The notes beneath the pieces are model-generated. The model saw only the letters and a list, made by a program, of their open reading frames with translations, searched no databases and was not told where the DNA came from. From the NCBI GenBank assembly GCA_021846605.1, contig JAJZWQ010000022.1, positions 1 to 27,594 on the forward strand: a stretch of DNA of 27,594 nucleotides, given 5' to 3'. The position numbers and the translations under genes are program-made. Source of the stretch: Bacillota bacterium. GTDB lineage: Bacteria > Bacillota_E > RBS10-35 > JAJYVN01. Shown here piece by piece: positions 3,504 through 27,594 of the stretch; within the stretch, counting starts at the first letter, position 1, and every line of letters begins with the position of its first letter.

Positions 3504-4082
3504 TCAGGCGGGCTTGTCGCCGTGCTTCTGCAGCGCGGAGCGGACCAGTTCCTTGGACTCGGACACCCCCGTCTCCAGCGCGCCGGAGACGGTCTTGACA
3601 GCCTCCTCGCTGATCCCGCGGGCGCCCTCCAGCACGCCGCGCACGGCCTGCTCGGCCGCCGCCGAGACGTCCCCCGAGACGTGCGCCGTGGCCGCGATGG
3701 TGCCGCGGACGACGCCGACCGCCGTCTGCCCCAAATCGCTGCCCACCTCGTTGGCCCCCTGGATGGCACCGCGCGCCGCCGCGCGGGCCGTGCCGCCGAT
3801 ATCCCCGCCGACGTCGTTGGCCGCGTGGATCACCCCACGCGTCGTGCTGCTCACCGCACCGGTCACGTCGGCACCCACCTGGGCGGCCGTCTGCACGGCC
3901 GTCCCCGCCACCTCGCCCGCCGAGCGGGTCAACTCCTCCGTGACGTCGGCCGCCCCGTGGATGGCCGTCACCAGCACCTTGCGCACCGCGTCGACCGCGG
4001 CGCTCCCCACCTCACCCGTCCCCGTCAGTGTGCCGATCAGCGCACCCTTGACCATGGCCCCAACGCTATGCTTGCTCTCCAT
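3504..4082 (-). CDS. Ala/Gly/Val-rich protein with 22-residue amphipathic repeats (unknown function)
   Basis: A 192-residue protein with almost no aromatic residues. After M-E-S-K-H-S-V-G-A and a short Gly-rich hydrophobic stretch, the middle to C-terminal part contains at least four tandem 22-residue units of pattern x5-R-G-x-I/L-x2-A-x2-V/I-x2-D/E-x-x-x-x. Examples of the core are T-R-G-V-I-H-A-A-N-D-V and V-R-G-V-L-E-G-A-R-G-I. An 11/22-residue periodicity is seen in amphipathic helices of LEA-like, apolipoprotein-like and phasin-like proteins that coat membranes, granules or protect proteins; which applies here is not known. The start was chosen at 4082, where GGGAGGGG lies 6 nt upstream of ATG; the reading frame runs further upstream, but that extension lacks the protein's composition. 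It converges with the glycosyltransferase gene, 12 bp away. Confidence 0.75.
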   Translation of the reverse strand: MESKHSVGAMVKGALIGTLTGTGEVGSAAVDAVRKVLVTAIHGAADVTEELTRSAGEVAGTAVQTAAQVGADVTGAVSSTTRGVIHAANDVGGDIGGTARAAARGAIQGANEVGSDLGQTAVGVVRGTIAATAHVSGDVSAAAEQAVRGVLEGARGISEEAVKTVSGALETGVSESKELVRSALQKHGDKPA

Positions 4083-4206
4083 CGTACCCCTCCCACCGTG
4101 GAGATTGGACTCCCCATCGGATGATCCCGTATGGAGTGTACGCCTAGTGGGGACCCCTGAACAGGACGCATAGGACGTTGATCCGAATTCCCGCGCCTTG
4201 GGGCAC

Positions 4207-4244
4207 GGTCCCCGCAGAACGTGCGCGGCGCGCGGCCGGGGACC
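4207..4244 (-). terminator. Possible hairpin downstream of the pyr operon
   Basis: GGTCCCCG (4207-4214) and CGGGGACC (4237-4244) form an 8-bp perfect stem around a GC-rich loop, 12 bp past the pyrF stop codon. There is no T-run after it in the operon direction, so a classical intrinsic terminator is not shown. The rest of 4083-4255 holds no gene and presumably the promoter of the repeat-protein gene. Confidence 0.25.
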
Positions 4245-4255
4245 AGATCTCCCGC

Positions 4256-4978
4256 TCAGGCGCCCGCCGAACCCTCCCCGCGCAACTCCCACAGGATCCG
4301 CGCCAAGGCGGCGCCGCGGTCGGGCGCCTGGGTGACCGGCCGGCCGACGACCAGGAAGTCCGCGCCAGCACGGGCCACATCCGCTGGCGTCGCCGCCCGC
4401 GCCTGGTCCCCCGGCGCGCTTCCCTGGGGACGCACGCCAGGGGTGACGATCAGGAAGGCAGGCGAGGTCGCCGCCCGCACCAGCCCGACCTCGTGGGGCG
4501 AAGCCACCACGCCCGCGCAGCCGGCATCCGCGGCCACCTGGGCCAGGACCACCACCTGCTCGGCCAGGGGCAGGCGCGCGCCCATGGTCTGCAGGGTCGC
4601 GGCATCCAGGCTGGTCAGCACCGTAACCCCCAGGCAGCGGAAGGGGCGTGGGGCGGCGGACGCCGCCCCGACGGCCGCGCGCAGCATCTCCGGGCCGCCC
4701 GCGGCGTGGAGCGTCACACCCCAGATCTCCAGGTCCCCCAGCGCGGCGGCGGCGCGTTCCACGGTGTGGGGGATGTCGTGGAGCTTGAGGTCAAGCAGGA
4801 CCGGACCAGCCTCCTGCTGCAGCCGGCGCACGCCCTCCGGGCCGAAGCGGCAGAAGAGCTCCAAGCCCACCTTGAAGCGGACGCCCGCCGGGCGCAGGAC
4901 GCGGGCCACCCCCTCCGCCTCCTCGAGGTCGGCGAAGTCCAGCGCCACGAAGACCCGGTCCGGTGCCAGGCCCGCCAC
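4256..4978 (-). CDS. pyrF: Orotidine-5'-phosphate decarboxylase
   Basis: This enzyme decarboxylates OMP to UMP, the last step of de novo pyrimidine synthesis, in the cytoplasm. The 240-residue protein has the family signature L-D-L-K-L-H-D-I-P with the catalytic Asp63-Lys65-Asp68 set, substrate-binding Asp14 and Lys36 near the N-terminus, and the phosphate-binding C-terminal block V-T-P-G-V-R-P...D-Q-x-R...G-A-D-F-L-V-V-G-R-P-V-T. Its length is normal for the bacterial type-1 enzyme. The GTG start lies 4 bp after the carB stop, and its Shine-Dalgarno GGGGAGGAG is formed by the last carB codons, so translation is probably coupled to carB. It is the last gene of the pyr operon; pyrD, pyrE and pyrK are not in the window. 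Confidence 0.95.
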   Translation of the reverse strand: MAGLAPDRVFVALDFADLEEAEGVARVLRPAGVRFKVGLELFCRFGPEGVRRLQQEAGPVLLDLKLHDIPHTVERAAAALGDLEIWGVTLHAAGGPEMLRAAVGAASAAPRPFRCLGVTVLTSLDAATLQTMGARLPLAEQVVVLAQVAADAGCAGVVASPHEVGLVRAATSPAFLIVTPGVRPQGSAPGDQARAATPADVARAGADFLVVGRPVTQAPDRGAALARILWELRGEGSAGA

Positions 4979-4982
4979 GGAC

Positions 4983-7900
4983 TCACTCCTCCCCGTATTC
5001 CCCCAGGGCCCAGGCGCCCAGCGCCCCCGCCGGACGGCTCCGCTCGGCGCCGATGGCCTGGATCAGGGCCGCCAAGGTGTCCAGGGACGTCAGGCAGGGG
5101 ACCCCGAGTTCGGCGGCGACCCGACGGACGCGGAAGCCGTCCCGTTCGGCCCGGCGCCCGCGGGTGAGCGTGTTGACCACCAACTGCACCCGGCCCCGGC
5201 GGATGTCGTCCAGACAGTTGGGCGACCCCTCGTCCAGCTTGAGGGAGAGGTCGGCCACGATTCCGGCCGTGGCCAACAGGGTCTGCGTGCCCCGCGTCGC
5301 CACCATGCCGATCCCCAGTTCGGCCAGCCGCACCAGCAGGGGCAGGGCCTCGGGTTTGTCGCGGTCGGCGATCATGATCAGCGCGCGGTCGCCCGCCCGC
5401 GGCAGCCCGGTGCCACACGCCGCGAACCCCTTGGCCAGGGCGGCATCCAGGGTCGGCCCCACCCCCATGACCTCGCCGGTAGACTTCATCTCCGGCCCCA
5501 GGGCGGTGTCCACGCCGTGCAGCTTGCTCCAGGAGAAGACCGGCATCTTCACGGCCACGTACCGGGGGTCGGGCGGGCGGTTCACCGGGCCGGCGTATCC
5601 CTGCGCGGCCAGGTCCCGGCCCAGGATCACGCCGGTGGCGATCCGCGTCAGCGGCACCCCCGTGACCTTCGTCAAAAAGGGCACCGTACGCGACGAGCGC
5701 GGGTTGACCTCCAGCACGTGCACCCCGGCGTCCGAACGGTCGGCGCCAGCGGGGTCCAGCACGTACTGCACGTTCATCAGTCCCGCAATCTTCAGGGCCC
5801 GCGCCATCTCCAGGGTGTGGCGCTCGATGGTGGCCACGGCCCGTGGCGAGAGGTGCTGCGGCGGATACACGGCGATGGAGTCCCCACTGTGGACGCCGGC
5901 CCGCTCCACGTGTTCCAGGATGCCGGCAATCAGCACCGACGTGCCGTCGCTCACCGCGTCCACCTCCACCTCCCGGCCGCCCAGGTAGCGGTCCACGAGG
6001 ATGGGATGGGCCGAACTCACCAGCACCGCGCTGCGCACATACTCCTCCAGGTCCGTGGCGTTGTAGCAGATCTCCATCGCGCGACCGCCCAGCACGTAGG
6101 AGGGGCGGACCAACACCGGATAGCCGGTGCGCGCGGCGACGGCCTGGGCCTCCCCCAGTGAACTCGCGCTGCCGCCCATCGGGCGTGGGATCCCCAGGTG
6201 CTCCAGCAGGTTGTCGAACTGCCCCCGGTCCTCGGCGGCGTCCACCCCGGCGGGCGACGTGCCCAGGATCCGGACACCGGCCGCGTGCAGCGGCCCGACC
6301 AGGTTGATCGCGGTCTGGCCGCCGAACTGGGCGATCACCCCCAGGGGACGCTCCCGCCGGATCACCGCCATGGTGTCTTCAAAGGTCAGCGGTTCGAAAT
6401 ACAGCCGGTCGGCGGTGCTCCAGTCGGTGCTGACCGTCTCGGGGTTGTTGTTCACGATGATGGCCTCATAGCCCGCCTCGCGCAGGGCCCAGACCGCGTG
6501 CACCGACCCGTAGTCGAACTCGATGCCCTGCCCGATGCGAATCGGCCCGGACCCCAGCACCAGCACCTTGGGCCGGTCGCTGGGCCGCGATTCGTCCTCG
6601 ACGTCGTAGCAGGAGTAGAAGTACGGGGTGGCCGCCTCGAACTCGGCGGCGCAGGTGTCCACCATCTTGTACACGGGGTGGATGTCCAGCGCGAGGCGCG
6701 CCGCAGCGACCTCCCCCTCCTCCCGCCCGATCAGCAGCCCCAGGCGCCGGTCCGAGAGGCCGGCCTCCTTCATGCGCCGCAGGCCGGCCGCGTCCCCCAG
6801 GAGCGCCGGTCCCGCGGCACCGGCCGCCGCCTCCAACTGGACCAACCGCTCCAACTGCCGCAGGAACCAGGGGTCGATCGCCGTGCGCTCCTGCAACGCG
6901 CGGACGGTTTCCCCGCGGCGGAGCGCCTCGCACAAGAGGAACAGCCGGCGGTCGTCGCCCGGCACCAACTGCGCCAGGAGGTCGGCCAGGGACATCTGTT
7001 CGACGCCGGGCAGCGCGCAGCCGTCCAGACCGGAGTCCAGCGAGCGGATGGCCTTGTGCAGAGCCCCGGTGAACGTGCGGTCGATGGCCATGACCTCGCC
7101 GGTAGCCTTCATCTGCGTGCCCAGGGCGCGGTCCGCTGTGCGGAACTTGTCGAAGGGCCAGCGGGGGATCTTGAGCACGACGTAGTCCAGCGACGGCTCG
7201 AAAAACGCGAAGGTCGAGCCGGTCACCGGGTTGCGGATCTCGTCCAGGGAGAGGCCCACGGCGATCTTGGCCGCCACCTTGGCGATCGGGTAGCCGGTGG
7301 CCTTGCTGGCCAGGGCCGAGGAGCGGGAGACGCGCGGGTTGACCTCGATCACGTGGTAGGCGTCGCTCTGAGGGTCGGCCGCCAGTTGCACGTTGCACCC
7401 GCCCCGGACCCCCAGGGCGCCGATGATGCGCAGGGAGGCGGCGCGCAGCCGCTGGTAGTCGCGGTCGCTCAGCGTCTGGGAGGGCGCCACCACGATGGAG
7501 TCGCCGGTGTGCACACCCACCGGGTCCAGGTTCTCCATGTTGCAGACGGTGATGGCGTTGCCGCGCCCGTCCCGCATGACCTCGTACTCGACCTCTTTCC
7601 ATCCGTAGATCGAGCGCTCCACCAAGCACTGGCCGATGGGGCTGTGGCGCAGCCCGCGCTCCAGCACGGCCGCCAACTCCTCGCTGGTGCGCGCGAACCC
7701 GCCGCCCGTGCCCCCCAGGGTGTATGCCGGGCGCACGATCAGCGGGAACCCGATGCGCCCGGCGAACGCCTCCCCCTCGGCCAGGCTGTGCACGACCGCC
7801 GAGTCGGGGACCGGCTCGCCCATGGCGCGCATCGCCTCCCGGAACAGCTCGCGGTCCTCGGCCTTGCGGATGCCCTCCAAGGGGGTGCCGAGCACCTCCA

Positions 7901-8237
7901 CCCCGTAGCGCTCCAGCACGCCGGCCTCGGCCAAGGCCACGGTCAGGTTCAGCCCCACCTGCCCGCCCAGGCCGGCCAGCACCCCCTGGGGGCGCTCCTT
8001 GGCGATCACCGCCTCCAGTTGCGGCACCGTCAGGGGTTCGATATACACCCGGTCGGCGATCTCGGCGTCGGTCATGATCGTGGCGGGGTTCGAGTTGACC
8101 AGCACCACCTTGAGCCCCTCTTCGCGCAGCGCCTGGCACGCCTGCGTACCGGCGTAGTCGAACTCCGCCGCCTGGCCGATGACGATGGGACCCGAGCCGA
8201 TGACCATCACCTTGTGCAGATCGGGGCGGCGCGGCAA
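4983..8237 (-). CDS. carB: Carbamoyl-phosphate synthase, large subunit
   Basis: The large subunit makes carbamoyl phosphate from bicarbonate, two ATP and the ammonia delivered by CarA. The 1084-residue protein shows the internal duplication of the family: an N-terminal half starting with [10 protein letters not shown] (from residue 14) and a second half starting [12 protein letters not shown] near residue 560. Each half has an ATP-grasp domain with E-V-N-P-R-x-S-R-S/T, separated by the oligomerisation domain. The C-terminal ~140 residues form the MGS-like allosteric domain. The start is a TTG with a strong GGAAGGAGG ten bases upstream; a codon overlap with carA is absent, and the intergenic gap is 41 bp. 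It shares the pyr operon and presumably the PyrR control of the leader. Confidence 0.97.
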
Positions 8238-8278
8238 GGCGAGGGGCCTCCTTCCGTGTGCGGGCCGGGACGCACCGG

Positions 8279-9397
8279 TCAGCGAGCGGCCAGCGCGCTA
8301 CGCCGGCCGCAGAGGTCCAGGAACTCGGTGAACAGTTGTCGCGAATCCTCCGGACCGGGACAGGCCTCGGGGTGGTACTGCACGGAGAAGGCGGGGAGCG
8401 TCCGGTGGCGCAACCCCTCCACCGTGCCATCGTTGAGGTTGCGGTGGGTGATCTCGACGGTGTCCGGATCCAGGGACTCCGCGACCAGGGCGTAGCCGTG
8501 GTTCTGCGTCGTGATGGCGCCCAGACCGCTGCGCAGGTCCATCACCGGGTGGTTGACCCCGTGGTGGCCGAACAGCATCTTCTCGGTGCGCCCGCCCAGG
8601 GCCAGCCCCAGCAGTTGGTGGCCCAGGCAGATGCCGAAGAGGGGCAGGCCGGCGGCCAACAGGGCGCGGATCGTCTCCGGCGCCCCGCGCACCCAGCGCG
8701 GATCGCCGGGGCCGTTGCTCAGCAGCACGCCGTCCGGCCCCAGGGCCAGGATCTGCTCGGGCGTGTATCCGGCGGGGGCCACCGTGACCCCCGCCCCCAG
8801 CGCCATCAGGCTGCGGGCGATGTTCGCCTTGTGGCCGTAGTCCACGAGCACGACGTGCGGCGTGCCTCGGCCCAGGACATACGGCTCGGCGCACGTCACC
8901 TTTCCCACCAGGTCGCCGGCGTCCCAGGCCTGGGCCCGCACGGCCAACTCCGCCACATGCTCCGGCGTCGCGCCCCCAGGCGCCAGCACGCCGCGCACCA
9001 CCCCGAAGCGCCGCAGGTGACGCGTGAGCGAGCGGGTGTCCACACCGCTGAGCCCTGGGATGCCGTGCGCGCGCAGGTAGGCGTCCAGATGCCCCCGCTC
9101 CCCCCAGTGGCTGGGGTCGCCGCACACCTCGCGCACCACAAAGCCCCCCACCCAGGGGCGGTGCGACTCCGCCTCGTCGTGGAGCGTGCCGTAGTTGCCC
9201 ATCAGGGGATAGGTCATCACGACCAGCTGGCCGGCGTAGGAGGGGTCGGTCAGGACCTCCTGGTACCCGGTCATCCCCGTGTTGAAGACGACCTCCCCGA
9301 TCGCCCCCTCCGCCTCCAGGGAGCCGAACGCCTCCCCCGCATACACGGTGCCGTCCTCGAGGACCAGCACGCCCTGCACCGCCCGCACCCCTTCCAT
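8279..9397 (-). CDS. carA: Carbamoyl-phosphate synthase, small (glutaminase) subunit
   Basis: The subunit hydrolyses glutamine and channels ammonia to CarB. The 372-residue protein has the N-terminal CPSase small-chain domain ([23 protein letters not shown]) and a class I glutamine amidotransferase domain with the full triad: Cys257 in G-I-C-L-G-H-Q, and His342 and Glu344 in Y-H-P-E-A. The ATG at 9397 has no clear ribosome-binding site; the next GTG codons (residues 4 and 7) follow GAAGGGG, so the true start may be about six codons later. It lies 19 bp after pyrC and 41 bp before carB in the pyr operon. Confidence 0.96.
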
Positions 9398-9416
9398 GCC
9401 GGGATCCCACGCTATG

Positions 9417-10625
9417 CTAACGCATTTTTATGCACTCGTCATCCAGAGAGAAGACCACCCGCCCCGCCACCACGGTCAGCAGCGCGCGGCCGGTGAGCCG
9501 GCGGCCGGCCGCCGGGCTCACCGGGCCCGCCGTCCAGGCGCACGCCGGGTCGAACACCGTGGCGTCCGCCGGCGCCCCGGGGGCAAGCGTCCCGCCCGGG
9601 AGGCCGAAGCGGCGGGCGGGGCCGGCGCTCGCCGCCTGCGCCAGACCCAGGGGCCCCAGGACCTCCAGACCCAGGGAGAGCGCGCCCTCCAGCGCGGGCC
9701 CCCCGTAGGACGCATAATCATACTCACACGCCTTCTCCTCCGGCGGGCAAGAGGCGTGTCCGGAGGCCAGGAGGAGCCTGCCCTCCCGCGCAGCCGCCAC
9801 CAGGGCTAGGCGGTCGGCCTCGGAGCGGAGCGGCGGGGAGAGCTTCGCCTCGGTGCGGTAGCCCCGGATCGCCTGCTCGGTCAGCGCCAGATGGTGGGCC
9901 GTGACCCCCGCGCTGGCACCCCCCAGCACCCCCAGGCTGCTCGCCGCCGACAGCGCCGCGAAGTGCGGTGGAGGGCCGGCGCCCGCCGCCGCGGCGACGT
10001 CCCGCGCGACGGCCGCCACCTCGGCCGCGGCCGGGATGCCTCGCAGCCCCATCGCGAAGGACAGCGGGCCCTCGTGCGCCACCCCGCCGCCCACCAGGTC
10101 GGCCAACTCGGCATGCAGCACGAGCGGCCGCCCCAGGGCGCCGGCGTAGGCCACGGCCTGGCGGACCCGGCCCGCGTCCCCCAGGGCCGCCGGCCAGTCG
10201 CTGAAGGCCACGGCTCCGGCCCGCGCCAAGAGGCCCATGTCCGCCAGGCCACCCCCGTCGGTGGCCGCCGCCACGGGGTGGAAGCGCACCGGATGGCCGC
10301 CAGCGGCCAGGGCCGCGACGCGCCGGGGATCGGTGCTGCGAGTGTGGGCCAGGACGGCCGTGTATCCGGCGGCGGCCGCCGCCACGGCCAGGGCCTCGGG
10401 CCCCTCGCGCCAGGGGTCGGGGTCCAGGTCCAGGCGGCAGAGGGTGTCAATGGGGCCCGGCAGCACGAGCAGGCCGCGGCAGTCGCGCGCCTCCCACTCG
10501 CCCGTCGGCGCCGCCTCCCCGGGCCGCCGTACGGCCACGACCCCGTCCAGACCCAGATAGACGTCCGCCGGCCCATCCCACCCCAGTAGCGGATCGGCCA
10601 GGTGCCCGCCCACAAGGGCGATCAC
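9417..10625 (-). CDS. pyrC: Dihydroorotase-like protein lacking metal ligands (probable non-catalytic PyrC')
   Basis: The 402-residue protein aligns along its length with class I dihydroorotases: V-L-P-G-P-I-D, G-L-R-G-I-P-A-A-A-E, A-H-H-L-A-L-T-E and S-P-P-L-R-S-E-A-D-R are all present. The metal site is gone. The expected D-x-H-x-H reads D60-T-L-C-R64; the carbamylated-Lys position falls in A-F-S-D-W (142-143); and T-D-H-A-P-H reads S-G-H-A-S-C (288-293), losing the catalytic Asp. His171 and His221 remain. Such inactive PyrC' proteins are known from Pseudomonas, where they are required to assemble aspartate transcarbamoylase; the same role is inferred here from its place right after pyrB. 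The GTG start overlaps the pyrB TGA, indicating coupled translation. An active dihydroorotase should lie elsewhere in the genome. Confidence 0.88.
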   Translation of the reverse strand: MIALVGGHLADPLLGWDGPADVYLGLDGVVAVRRPGEAAPTGEWEARDCRGLLVLPGPIDTLCRLDLDPDPWREGPEALAVAAAAAGYTAVLAHTRSTDPRRVAALAAGGHPVRFHPVAAATDGGGLADMGLLARAGAVAFSDWPAALGDAGRVRQAVAYAGALGRPLVLHAELADLVGGGVAHEGPLSFAMGLRGIPAAAEVAAVARDVAAAAGAGPPPHFAALSAASSLGVLGGASAGVTAHHLALTEQAIRGYRTEAKLSPPLRSEADRLALVAAAREGRLLLASGHASCPPEEKACEYDYASYGGPALEGALSLGLEVLGPLGLAQAASAGPARRFGLPGGTLAPGAPADATVFDPACAWTAGPVSPAAGRRLTGRALLTVVAGRVVFSLDDECIKMR

Positions 10626-11545
10626 GACGCCAGTCCCCCCTCTTCGAGCAACTGGTAGAGGACCGCCATGCGCACCGCCACCCCGGCGGAGACCTGGGCC
10701 TCCATCTGGGCGGTGGGCAGCGCCATGGCCTCCGGGCTCAGCTCGACGCCGCGATTGACCGGGCCGGGGTGCAGGAGCAGCGCCCCGGGGCACAGGCGCG
10801 CCAGCCGGTCGGGGTCCAAGCCCCAGAGGGCGCGGTACTCGGCCGACGCCGGCACGATCCCCGCCTCCTGGCGTTCGCGCTGGATGCGCAGGGCCATCAC
10901 GGCGTCGGCCCCGAGCAGGGCATCCTCCAGGTCATGGGACACGCGCGCGCCCAGGGCGGGGCCGGCCTCGGGCGGGACCAGCGTGGGCGGCCCCGCCAGG
11001 CAGACGCGGGTCCCCATCGCGGCAAAGGCGCGGGCGGCCGAACGCGCGACCCGGCTGTGCAACACATCGCCGACGATGGTCAGCGCCAGGCCCTCCACGC
11101 CGCCTCGGGCCCGTCGCACGGCGAACAGATCGGCCAGGGCCTGCGTGGGGTGGGCGTGCGTCCCGTCCCCGGCGTTGACCACCGGCACGTCCAGGTGGCG
11201 CGCGGCGAACTCGGCCGCGCCGCTGGCCGGGTGGCGCACGACGATGCAGTCGGCGCCCAGGGCCTGGCTGGTGCGCAGCGTGTCCAGCAAGGACTCGCCC
11301 TTGACGACCGAACTCGACTGCGCCGCCAGCGAGAGGGCGTCGGCGCCCAGAGACTTGCACGCCAACTCGAACGAATGCCGGGTGCGCGTGCTGGCCTCGT
11401 AAAACAGCAGGACCACCGTGCGCCCGCGGAGGGCGGGCACCCGCGGGATCGGTCGCTGCAGGATCTCGGCCATCGACTCCGCCGCGTCCAGGATCTGCGT
11501 GAGCGCGGCGGCGCCCAGCCCTTCCACATCGCAGAGGTGCCGCAA
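10622..11545 (-). CDS. pyrB: Aspartate carbamoyltransferase catalytic subunit
   Basis: It joins carbamoyl phosphate to aspartate, the committed step of pyrimidine synthesis. The 307-residue protein has the carbamoyl-phosphate loop S-T-R-T-R (52-56) in F-Y-E-A-S-T-R-T-R-H-S-F-E, Lys82 in V-V-K-G-E-S for the neighbouring active site, H-P-T-Q-A-L (132-137), and the late loop L-H-P-G-P-V-N-R-G. All are conserved in active enzymes. No pyrI regulatory subunit is present; the adjoining PyrC'-like protein may take the structural role. The TTG at 11545 begins at the usual family N-terminus, but a CTG at 11554, six bases after GGGGAGGGG, is an alternative start. The gene lies 23 bp after pyrR and its stop overlaps the pyrC start. 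Confidence 0.95.
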   Translation of the reverse strand: MRHLCDVEGLGAAALTQILDAAESMAEILQRPIPRVPALRGRTVVLLFYEASTRTRHSFELACKSLGADALSLAAQSSSVVKGESLLDTLRTSQALGADCIVVRHPASGAAEFAARHLDVPVVNAGDGTHAHPTQALADLFAVRRARGGVEGLALTIVGDVLHSRVARSAARAFAAMGTRVCLAGPPTLVPPEAGPALGARVSHDLEDALLGADAVMALRIQRERQEAGIVPASAEYRALWGLDPDRLARLCPGALLLHPGPVNRGVELSPEAMALPTAQMEAQVSAGVAVRMAVLYQLLEEGGLAS

Positions 11546-11568
11546 CCGCTCCAGGCCACTCCCCTCCC

Positions 11569-12234
<666 letters not shown>

Positions 12235-15006: not shown

Positions 15007-15274
15007 GACAGCCGGGCCGGCCCGCCTCGGGGCACGGGCCAGCGGCCGGCATGGACACCCCCCTGGCGTGCCGACCACCCTGTCTGGGCTGAAGCCTCCC
15101 ACGGCCAAGCCTCTCCTCCCACCCCGCCGCCGGGGCCCCCACCGGGACCGGCCGGTAGGTCCGTATCGCCGACCACATTCTGTTCTCGACTTCCCGGCCT
15201 CTCGCGACGAAGACCATCTTCTGAGGAGGCCCTCGGGGAGTGCCCTCCCTGGATCCCCTGGTGGGCGTTCTAGA
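15007..15274. other. Non-coding stretch between Uma2 gene and CRISPR remnant
   Basis: No convincing gene, RNA gene or clear terminator was seen. A lone GCGAC at 15204-15208 resembles the repeat terminus, but its distance to the first array repeat (66 bp) does not fit one spacer. Confidence 0.5.
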
Positions 15275-15657
15275 GTTTCAACCCTACTCGCAGAGTTCGG
15301 CTCATTCACTGCACAATCTGACGCAGCCCTGGTGCCACAAGAGGATGGAAATATCAGGTGGATTGTGCAGCGCGGTAGGCGCTGCCGCACCGTGAGCACA
15401 ACATGTTGTACGAGGTATTGACCGCAGTCACTGCATATTGTCGGCGCAGGCGTTTCGGCTGCACAATGCCGCCGCAGGTCTTTGGCGCAAATGAGCCGAA
15501 CTCTGACTCGGCATTCCTGTTGTTGCGACAGGGCACGATGCGGCGATTGGACGCCGCATATCAGTTTCAATGCCCTACTCGGCATTCCTGTTGTTGCGAC
15601 GGCCGGGGGCGGCGCTCCGGACGGTCTGGTCCCGCTGTTTCAATGCCCTACTCGGCA
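15275..15657 (-). CRISPR. Degenerate CRISPR array: three repeat copies, two spacers, no cas genes
   Basis: The intact repeat is 37 nt (15564-15600); on the plus strand it begins GTTTCAATGCCC and ends TTGTTGCGAC. A second copy (15275-15290 plus 15511-15529) is split by an inserted element and lacks two bases. A third (15637-15657) keeps only 21 nt. The spacers are 15530-15563 (34 nt) and 15601-15636 (36 nt). The complement of the repeat ends ATTGAAAC, the usual 5' handle of type I-B/I-D/III crRNAs, so transcription would be on the minus strand. The leader would have lain to the right, where the truncated repeat now meets a tnpB relic. No leader and no cas gene are visible; the array is probably dead. 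Confidence 0.85.
15291..15505. mobile_element. MITE-like non-autonomous element inserted in a CRISPR repeat
   Basis: The element is 215 bp. Its ends are 16-bp perfect inverted repeats, CAGAGTTCGGCTCATT (15291-15306) and its complement (15490-15505). ACTCG flanks it on both sides (15286-15290 and 15506-15510), a 5-bp target duplication. Removing the element and one ACTCG restores the CRISPR repeat through the junction. It has no transposase-size frame. Inside are repeated CTGCACAAT motifs (15309-15317, 15459-15467, and inverted at 15362-15370), a related copy at 15431, and a perfect ACAACATGTTGT palindrome (15398-15409). The parent IS family could not be named. Confidence 0.85.
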
Positions 15658-15777
15658 ACATAAGCGTCACATCCCTTGCCGGCCCCGCTCTACGTGGGAC
15701 TGGCGGGCCGCATCGTCAGACGGCCTATCGCAGCACGATCCGGTAGCTGCAAGCCCCCGGCTTCAGCCGTGGGGCTC
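15657..15777 (+). mobile_element. Relic of a tnpB 3' end with solo omega-RNA scaffold
   Basis: From 15691 the plus strand nearly matches the right end of the tnpB locus at 27196-27286, differing by a 2-nt indel and a few bases: TACGTGGGACTGGCGGGCC, GACGGCCTATCGCAGCACG, and the hairpin at 15753-15774, ending in TGAC. From 15657 to 15690 similarity is weaker (about 26 of 38 bases by eye) and starts at the codons for the R-N-I-G motif of TnpB. The rest of the element is absent. The left edge coincides with truncation of the CRISPR repeat. Confidence 0.75.
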
Positions 15778-15860
15778 TGACCGAAGCGTACGGGGCGAAA
15801 TCCACAAACACCTCAACGGACGCTACGCCGATCGGGGCCCGCCCCTGCGGACCCCGCCGC

Positions 15861-21627: not shown

Positions 21628-23244
21628 TCAGGCGCCCGTGCTGCCGCTACGCGTCAGGCGCATGAGTTCGAAGAGCACCTCGGGCAGGACCAGCGTCGTT
21701 CCGCCGGTCGCTTCCAGGCTCAGTCCCAGATCCGCGATCTGCTTGGTGGTGTTGTTCCAGAGCACGATCTCGTGTGCCCCGAACATGTACCCGCCGGTGG
21801 GCGGCGGGAACGTCGGGTTGGTACCCCCGCTCAGCCAGATGCACGGCGTGTCGCCCACCCACTGGATCCGGGGGGACGACCCGCTGCCCAGGAACATCCC
21901 GCGCGGCTGGATCTGCTTGACGTACTCCGCCAGGACCGTGTCGGACAGGGTGGCCGGGCCGGCCGGGTTGGGCCATACCCAGGGGATGGGGATGCCGGCG
22001 GCCCGCATGGTCTGCGCCGTGCGGGACGTGTAGGCCGGCAACTGGGCGGCCGGCCACATGTTGGCATACATGTACCCGGCGCCCGAGGGCCCCGTGGAGA
22101 ACGCGTCGTTGGGGGTGGCCGTGCGGCGGAAGTACGCGAGGATCGCCGGTGCCATGTCCGCCAGGATGGGGTCCAGTGACCAGGAGATCGGCACCTTGCC
22201 GCGCGAGGTCTCCTGCCAGCGGTCGAAGATTGTGGACTCATCGGCGGCGGCGTTGTCCCCGTCGCTGACCTGCAGGGACATGAAGACCTTCTTCCCGGCG
22301 GCCAACAGGCGCTTGGCCTCGGCCGTCGCGTTCAGCTTGGAGGGCGCCGCCACCGGCGCCGACACGCCTCCCCACACGGTCGCGTTGGTGAAGAAGTTGG
22401 CGGCCACGACCGCCACCGAATTGGGAGAGGTGATCTGCACCGACGACCACTCGTACTGGCCCGAGGAGCCGTTGGACCACCAGCCCAGCAGGATCCCGTT
22501 GGGGACCATCCCCTTGTACAGTTGCTCCGCCATCGCCTTCTGCGTTGCGCGGAAGGGGTTGAAGGTGAAGCAGAAGGCGCGGCTGGCCACGGCGAAATCA
22601 TACAGGTAGCCCCCGACGACGGGTTCCTCGCTGACCACGAACTCGCGGCTGCAGGCCGGCCACAGGTTCTTCAGCGCCCAGGCGTAGGCGGCGTCCTCGT
22701 CCGTGAACTTCCCGGTCAGATCCAGTTGCACGTCCAAACCCAGCGCAGACGCCTGGGAGCGGGTGGCCAGGAGCAGGTCGTGGAGCCCCGCGTAGGTGGC
22801 GGCGACGTTCTTGGTATACGGCAGGCCGTTCTCGCGGCTGGTCTGGGAGGGATCCCACACCACCGCCCCTTTATAGGCGCTGGCAAACCCGGCGAGGAAC
22901 TGCTGCAGGTTGGCCGTCGACACCGTCTCCTGCGGGATGTGGGCCAGGGCGGTGCCGAGCCAGCCGGTGTCGAAGTTGCGCTGCACCAGGTAGAGGGACG
23001 GTCCCCGGCCGGAGCGGTTCACCAGCCCCTGGAGGCTGCACAGCAAGGCCAGGTCGTCGGGGGTCATCCCGGCGGTCTCCACCACCAAGAGCTTGGTGGG
23101 GATGCGCATGCGGGGCAGAAAGCGGGGGCCGGCCACGCCCCCGGTGAGGCCGCAGCCGGCGAGCAGCGGGGCGGACAGCGCGGCCGCAAGCCCGCCGCCT
23201 GCCAGCCGGATCGCGTCGCGCCGCGAGATGTCGATGGTGATCAC
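21628..23244 (-). CDS. GxGYxYP family protein, Tat/lipoprotein signal
   Basis: The 538-residue protein carries a twin-arginine signal (S-R-R-D-A-I-R-L-A, Arg8-Arg9) that ends in a lipobox L-L-A-G-C (Cys31), so it is probably exported folded and lipid-anchored. The body matches the GxGYxYP family: L-V-V-E-T-A, L-V-N-R-S-G-R-G-P-S-L-Y-L, S-D-G-D-N, and the name motif as G-A-G-Y-M-Y-A, with Ala in place of the final Pro. The family is uncharacterised biochemically but often found with carbohydrate-active genes, matching the glycosidase-like gene just downstream. The start is uncertain: the GTG at 23244 has AAGGGG directly abutting, and the frame remains open upstream to 23352. It diverges from the methyltransferase gene. 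Confidence 0.8.
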   Translation of the reverse strand: MITIDISRRDAIRLAGGGLAAALSAPLLAGCGLTGGVAGPRFLPRMRIPTKLLVVETAGMTPDDLALLCSLQGLVNRSGRGPSLYLVQRNFDTGWLGTALAHIPQETVSTANLQQFLAGFASAYKGAVVWDPSQTSRENGLPYTKNVAATYAGLHDLLLATRSQASALGLDVQLDLTGKFTDEDAAYAWALKNLWPACSREFVVSEEPVVGGYLYDFAVASRAFCFTFNPFRATQKAMAEQLYKGMVPNGILLGWWSNGSSGQYEWSSVQITSPNSVAVVAANFFTNATVWGGVSAPVAAPSKLNATAEAKRLLAAGKKVFMSLQVSDGDNAAADESTIFDRWQETSRGKVPISWSLDPILADMAPAILAYFRRTATPNDAFSTGPSGAGYMYANMWPAAQLPAYTSRTAQTMRAAGIPIPWVWPNPAGPATLSDTVLAEYVKQIQPRGMFLGSGSSPRIQWVGDTPCIWLSGGTNPTFPPPTGGYMFGAHEIVLWNNTTKQIADLGLSLEATGGTTLVLPEVLFELMRLTRSGSTGA

Positions 23245-23405
23245 CCCTTCGCAGCGGTAGAGGCTTCGGGTTGGCCCGGCCCGATTCCTCGCCCGGACCG
23301 CGCCGATCACCCGCCAGGGGGTGGCAGCGTGCCCGGGCACACTGCAGGGCACCGCCGCGCGTACGCGAACCAGCGACAGGAAGTCGTCGCGAAAGGCGGT
23401 CGGGC

Positions 23406-26920: not shown

Positions 26921-27020
26921 ACCCCGACCCCTTCCCGCCGCCGATGCCCCGGGGGGCCGCCCGACAGCGGTCCACGGTATGTTCGGGGGCAGGCATTGGC
27001 GATGGGGCGGACAGGGCCCC

Positions 27021-27046
27021 CCGCAGAATCGATCCGATTCCTGCGG
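27021..27046. repeat. Inverted repeat upstream of cysH
   Basis: CCGCAGAATCG (27021-27031) and CGATTCCTGCGG (27035-27046) are complementary apart from one bulged base, with a 3-nt centre. It lies about 100 bp upstream of the cysH start, where an operator or leader hairpin for sulfur control could sit. No T-run follows on either strand, so it is not a standard terminator. Confidence 0.4.
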
Positions 27047-27127
27047 AAAATACCGATATCCCCCACCATGCTAGGGGGGGGGCCCAGGGGTGTCAAGGCG
27101 GGGCCGCCGCGCGGGGACCCTCCCTGG

Positions 27128-27594
27128 TCATGCGCCGCCCGCCGTCGCATAATGGGCGGGGTCCGGGACCCTCCGCCGGAAAGGGGCGAGCCCGTCAGGA
27201 CCCCACGGCGAAAGCCGGGGGCTTGCAGCTACCGGATCGTGCTGCGATAGGCCGTCTGACAGCGGCCCGCCAGTCCCACGTATAGCGAGGCTGGCCAGGT
27301 GGTTGGCTCCGATGTTCCTGGCCGCATTCAGGTCCGCGTGGAGGGAGAAGCCGCATTGCTGGCAGCGGAAGTCGCCCCGCCTCCGACGGTTGGCCTTCTC
27401 CCGGTGCCCGCAGCGGCTGCACTTCTGGCTGGTGTAGCGGGGATCTATCGTGGCCACGGCCACGCCCGCCAGGGCAGCCTTGTAGCGCCAGAAGCCGAGC
27501 AGGCGCGAGCAAGAATGCAGGCGGCGGCGCTGCTTGTTGCGTCCCGGCACGCGGTCACGGATGTCGGTCAGGTCCTCGCAGACCAGTGTTGTGC
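27128..27594 (-). CDS. tnpB: TnpB (IS605/IS1341 type), C-terminal part, truncated by the window edge
   Basis: The 155 codons present start at the RuvC-II motif T-T-L-V-C-E-D-L-T-D-I, continue with S-R-L-L-G-F-W-R-Y-K-A-A-L-A-G-V, the zinc ribbon T-S-Q-K-C-S-R-C-G-H...F-R-C-Q-Q-C-G, and the RuvC-III D-L-N-A-A-R-N-I-G. No disruption is visible in this part, so unlike the left copy it could be active; the RuvC-I region lies outside. The homologous stop codon inside the right-end hairpin is changed from TAG to TCG, which adds about 26 residues up to a stop at 27128. It belongs to the same subfamily as the pseudogene at 1072-2232. Confidence 0.85.
   Translation of the reverse strand, partial: TTLVCEDLTDIRDRVPGRNKQRRRLHSCSRLLGFWRYKAALAGVAVATIDPRYTSQKCSRCGHREKANRRRRGDFRCQQCGFSLHADLNAARNIGANHLASLAIRGTGGPLSDGLSQHDPVAASPRLSPWGPDGLAPFRRRVPDPAHYATAGGA
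27196..27286 (-). ncRNA. Right end / probable omega-RNA scaffold of the right tnpB copy
   Basis: The block overlaps the 3' end of tnpB and ends with hairpin 27201-27222 followed by TCCTGAC. It nearly matches the solo relic at 15691-15777 and is similar to 1060-1146. By analogy with studied TnpB systems it would be processed from the tnpB mRNA, and the bases just past the element (from about 27195 downwards) would be the guide. Expression is inferred. Confidence 0.5.

Follow-up and report, generated by a model that had tools for sequence, protein, structure and literature searches.

A 215-bp MITE-like element, bounded by perfect terminal inverted repeats (TIRs), has with practical certainty inserted into one repeat of a small CRISPR array, duplicating 5 bp of its target. 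The array lies near the middle of the window, between a Uma2 gene and a sulfatase gene; the window is the whole analyzed stretch of 27,594 nucleotides from a Bacillota bacterium (contig JAJZWQ010000022.1). The best explanation, to which a probability of about 0.9 is given, is that of a non-autonomous MITE-like element inserted into the CRISPR repeat in trans by a DDE-type IS transposase, with a 5-bp duplication. At this locus, the arrival of a small element in a CRISPR repeat is cleanly recorded, base by base. Its relevance lies chiefly in annotation, since array finders miss repeats and spacers where such a split occurs, and no general view is changed by it.

Borders of the Element and Target-Site Duplication

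The first 16 and the last 16 bases of the stretch 15291-15505 are exact reverse complements of each other, and ACTCG stands on both of its sides, at 15286-15290 and at 15506-15510. These five bases occur only once in the intact 37-nt CRISPR repeat (15564-15600). When position 15290 is joined to 15511, the resulting 35 nt are those of the intact repeat minus a TG after GTTTCAA. It is the conjunction of the TIRs, the ACTCG flanks, the single ACTCG of the intact repeat and the rejoined repeat that makes the insertion with target duplication so secure. The original prediction had described a 215-bp element with 16-bp perfect TIRs and ACTCG on either side, which is borne out to the base; its two further statements, that ACTCG is found once in the intact repeat and that the join restores the repeat save for 2 nt, are confirmed as well. 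The features of the locus are the following.

15275..15290, left piece of the interrupted repeat R1, GTTTCAA--CCCTACTCG, without the TG present in R2
15286..15290, left copy of the 5-bp duplication, ACTCG
15291..15505, MITE-like element, 215 bp
15291..15306, plus strand, left TIR, CAGAGTTCGGCTCATT
15309..15477, stretch of repeated motifs, with CTGCACAAT in three exact copies (two forward, one reverse) and one variant, CTGCATATT
15490..15505, minus strand, right TIR, a perfect match to the left one
15506..15529, right piece of the interrupted repeat R1, starting with the right ACTCG (15506-15510)
15530..15563, CRISPR spacer, 34 nt
15564..15600, intact CRISPR repeat R2, 37 nt
15601..15636, CRISPR spacer, 36 nt
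15637..15657, repeat R3, cut short to the first 21 of its 37 nt, with the breakpoint placed to within a base or two
15658..15775, plus strand, tnpB 3' remnant fused to R3, end approximate, its tail also present at the tnpB pieces close to 1072 and 27128

The TIRs form the sole perfect 16-bp inverted repeat of the window with arms at most 400 bp apart, and such a repeat arose in 3 of 100 first-order Markov sequences. With up to 3 mismatches, the TIR 16-mer has two sites in the window (0.16 expected), and no copy of the element was found there by this search beyond 15291-15505. For flanks at fixed positions, a 5-bp match would occur by chance with a probability of about 0.001.

Repeats and Spacers of the Array

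The array is made of 37-nt repeats, one intact (R2), one interrupted (R1) and one truncated (R3). The repeats are nearly identical, and the unique spacers between them are of similar length (34 and 36 nt), as is characteristic of a CRISPR array. Neither spacer has an exact match in IMG/VR, and their best matches in the phage collection are unconvincing (E 4 for the 34-nt spacer and 0.1 for the 36-nt one). The 37-nt repeat gave no match among plasmids, nor did a 28-nt part of it in IMG/VR.

Repeats of types I and III typically carry ATTGAAAC at their 3' end, and the reverse complement of the present repeat ends in ATTGAAAC. On the basis of this repeat end, the array probably reads on the minus strand. 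R3, with its lost leader, would thus be the start of the array and R1 its last repeat, so that the two bases missing from R1 would lie in the 3' part of the terminal repeat, where decay is common. This 2-nt gap may have arisen before the insertion or after it.

On the minus strand, R2 can form a 6-bp hairpin of -8.5 kcal/mol (AATGCC, a loop of 6 nt, GGCATT), an energy equalled by 12 of 200 shuffles. The equivalent of ACTCG covers most of the loop. The hairpin is not formed on the minus strand of R1, from which the TG is missing, and it may therefore have been absent at the time of insertion, since two of its stem bases are lacking.

Interior of the Element

The GC content of the element is 57.2%, against 71% for the window, and only 0.35% of the 215-bp windows (step of 5, those covering the element included) are as low. 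No ORF of at least 20 aa lies wholly inside it, while seven such ORFs overlap it. At 215 bp, the element is too short for transposase coding. The precise insertion, with a 5-bp duplication, of a short, TIR-bounded and non-coding element is upheld.

The copies of CTGCACAAT may be transposase-binding sites. When the interior was simulated 2000 times under a first-order Markov model, three copies of a 9-mer arose once, of an 8-mer 20 times and of a 7-mer 188 times, and two copies of a 10-mer 123 times, the word length having been chosen without prior fixing.

Folded as single-stranded DNA, the complete element is more stable than every one of 200 shuffles (z -4.1). The foldback is owed to the TIRs, because the interior displays no excess folding (z -0.18). 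Likewise, the strong folding of the interrupted repeat as RNA (z -3.5) is explained by the TIRs. A structured RNA was also considered for the element and is ruled out by the lack of any Rfam match together with the lack of excess folding inside the TIRs.

Search for Further Copies and for a Parent IS

Neither a second copy, nor a parent IS, nor an empty orthologous site was found in the genomes and viral contigs sampled. This includes the full-length IS with the same ends, which the original prediction had suggested looking for. The genomes included the relatives of G202, beside which the window sits on a long branch in a tree of CarB. Among 29 genomes of the class of G202, the TIR with 2 mismatches gave 23 matches in 12 genomes, and a reversed-pattern control gave 24 in 14; an inverted partner within 3 mismatches is missing from every one of these 23 loci. 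In the phylum of G202, presumably Bacillota, 398 genomes gave 11 matches in 11 genomes with 1 mismatch (control, 7 in 5). TIR matches in the sampled genomes are at control level.

The TIR 16-mer has four single matches in IMG/VR, none of them with an exact partner. A relaxed 14-base pattern picked out 84 stretches there, including one with a weak partner (4 mismatches) and unlike flanks. By blastn among plasmids, the element has two matches, of 23 and 25 bases. The only plasmid matches of the region 15250-15800 fall on part of its tnpB tail, with short stretches of an Ammonifex and an Allochromatium plasmid (E 3e-3 and 4e-2); among phages, a stretch of 29 bases is matched (E 5e-2). The array region reaches E 0.02 at best against 29 genomes.

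Possible Transposase Family

The ends of the element weakly resemble those of some members of the IS1634 family, loci of which (NF033559) were found in 48 of 149 sampled genomes. Thirty loci were fetched, and the ends of eight elements (nine entries), picked by eye from them, were compared with the element end; the other 22 loci lacked a pair of ends that could be read, were truncated, or had legible ends left unscored (for example L180, L184, L186 and L189). The closest element, L168, agrees at 10 of 16 positions, and at 8 of the 9 outer ones. L163 and L188 agree at 9 of 16 and L167 at 8 of 16, and the remaining four elements at 3 to 6. Half of the eight begin with C-C-(T)-GAGTT or CCGAGTT. 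Agreement at 10 of 16 positions would arise by chance with a probability of 0.03, or of 0.07 if the matching rate is set to 0.28, and agreement at 8 of 9 with one of about 0.002, figures which assume 18 comparisons, whereas 27 were tried, and the register and the IS1634 resemblance itself were chosen after seeing the data.

Family members and the present element share ends beginning with C, some of which read C-N-GAGTT, and the few family members showing a flank duplication have one of 4 to 7 bp. In contrast, agreement is limited to 10 of 16 end positions at best and 3 to 9 otherwise, and the present element has no transposase gene. The internal motif CTGCACAA is absent from all five IS1634 loci checked. 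From these end sequences, an IS1634-like parent may be proposed as a lead, not as an assignment.

IS1380 was examined as a contrast through 7 of 16 loci, which come from 4 of the 149 genomes. Its readable ends, CCTGAATCCGTGA and CCTGAAATATTCAT, are less alike to the element end, as judged by eye without a score. A Tn7/Tn402-type origin, which the 5-bp duplication and the repeated internal motif could have evoked, was set aside because ends of that type read TG...CA, whereas those of the element read CA...TG.

State of the Array and Fusion to tnpB

The array looks like a relic, since it has two spacers, no cas operon was seen, and its end repeat is cut and fused to a tnpB remnant. The window holds 118 ORFs of at least 90 aa in the ORF list, 28 of which were scanned (23 against Pfam and 20 against PADLOC), and no cas operon was detected among these 28. 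Cas12 and Csx1 models match the tnpB pieces at 1075-1473 and 27131-27550, and a Cas12f model matches the frame 1492-2232, adjoining the first of these pieces (E 6e-6). In the Pfam scan, both pieces (as 1072-1473 and 27128-27550) bear a Cas12f1-like TNB domain. A weak Cas5a match (E 0.0034) on the product of 3507-4292, where no Pfam family is found at 1e-5, is taken as chance.

R3 leads directly into the final codons of a tnpB gene and its 3' tail, which are homologous to the ends of the other two tnpB pieces. This second break in the array is no part of the original prediction. A deletion has therefore most likely removed one end of the array together with most of tnpB. Different mobile elements have damaged the two ends of what appears to be a small CRISPR relic.

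Some observations were also made on the tnpB copies themselves. Their three 3' ends (960-1473, 15658-15775 and 27010-27550) have in common a tail that extends through AAGCCCCCGGCTT. When the left copy is compared with the middle one, this tail is better conserved than the stretch directly before it, as would be expected if it also encodes a guide-RNA end. The left tnpB seems split over two minus-strand frames, with the TNB end in 1072-1473 and a Cas12f-like middle in 1492-2232.

Origin of the Insertion and Competing Explanations

According to the preferred explanation, a DDE-type IS transposase acting in trans would have moved the non-autonomous element, which counts as MITE-like irrespective of any further copies. 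A staggered cut of 5 bp would have been made at ACTCG inside the CRISPR repeat, and gap repair would then have left these 5 bp duplicated on both sides. The array could already have been a relic or could have become one later, its other end being deleted and fused to the tnpB remnant. Because the array looks like a relic, the insertion was most likely kept as a neutral one, and the likeliest history is that a MITE-like element inserted once, without effect on fitness. A narrower question within this explanation is whether the element could be the internally deleted remnant of one full IS, with no multi-copy MITE family behind it. The single copy in the window, and the lack of any other in the sampled genomes or viral contigs, agree with such a remnant; however, further copies could sit elsewhere in the genome, and no trace of a transposase frame was seen, although 215 bp is short for one to show. 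We regard this variant as possible and somewhat doubtful.

The insertion might instead have been targeted or adaptive, either because the transposase favors CRISPR repeats, for instance through a hairpin loop, or because disabling of the array was selected. ACTCG does overlap the loop of the possible repeat hairpin, and IS6110 is called a user of CRISPR repeats as a hot spot in the available text of PMC7820667. Yet the case consists of one insertion, the array has two spacers and no cas operon was detected near it, and the hairpin is weak by the shuffle comparison and deprived of two stem bases in R1, so that targeting or selection looks improbable. A bolder version, in which the transposase of an IS, perhaps one of the IS1634 group, would recognize the palindromic CRISPR-repeat hairpin and repeatedly place miniature derivatives in its loop, is a more distant prospect still; if true, CRISPR arrays would be a natural landing site. 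Finally, the 215 bp could be ancestral to the array or its flank, and the flank match a coincidence. No empty-site relative was reached that would speak against it, but the 5-bp match falls at the exact TIR borders within an otherwise intact repeat, and hardly any credence is left for this last explanation.

Relation to Known Insertions

Insertions of mobile elements into a CRISPR repeat or remnant have been reported from other microbes before. In Mycobacterium tuberculosis, IS6110 splits a CRISPR direct repeat with duplication of GGG, and the region is called a hot spot (PMC7820667, in the text available). As here, the repeat is halved, a short target duplication is present and the intact repeat can be recovered by overlapping the halves; in contrast, IS6110 belongs to the IS3 family as a full element and makes 3-bp duplications (PMC7820667), whereas the present element is a 215-bp non-coding one with a 5-bp duplication, seen once. 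In the archaeon Haloquadratum walsbyi HBSQ001, the accessible part of PMC3119063 places the MITE HqIRS37 in a CRISPR remnant with no cas genes. The two cases share a MITE in a short, cas-less CRISPR remnant, but HqIRS37 sits in a spacer, not a repeat, and its host is archaeal (PMC3119063, same part).

IS elements and MITEs are reported in cas genes in the available portion of PMC10359306, which also cites prophages integrating into CRISPR repeats. Mobile elements thus break CRISPR-Cas loci there as they do here, although those cases concern cas genes (PMC10359306), and the present one a repeat whose array has no cas genes in sight. The accessible portion of PMC9862357 contains no case of a MITE within a CRISPR array, and no case of a MITE inside the CRISPR repeat itself was found in the open-licence literature searched, to the extent that its text was available.

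Host Lineage and Other Genes of the Window

The host is Bacillota-like, with 71% GC in the window, and no close relative of it was reached. Among the matches listed in sampled genomes, identity does not exceed 65% for CarB, which suggests a deep-branching lineage, and 60% for CarA. Both belong to a pyrimidine operon at 4256-12171 that comprises pyrR, pyrB, a pyrC-like ORF, carA, carB and pyrF; the pyrC-like ORF has no Pfam match at 1e-10.

A GxGYxYP-type putative glycoside hydrolase is encoded at 21628-23352. No relative of it was found in a class of four genomes. A wider search scored 7998 candidates from about 5.8 billion proteins and returned four further relatives above 60% identity (64-71%). 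Since only these four stand out among so many scored candidates, the host lineage seems to be sparsely sampled.
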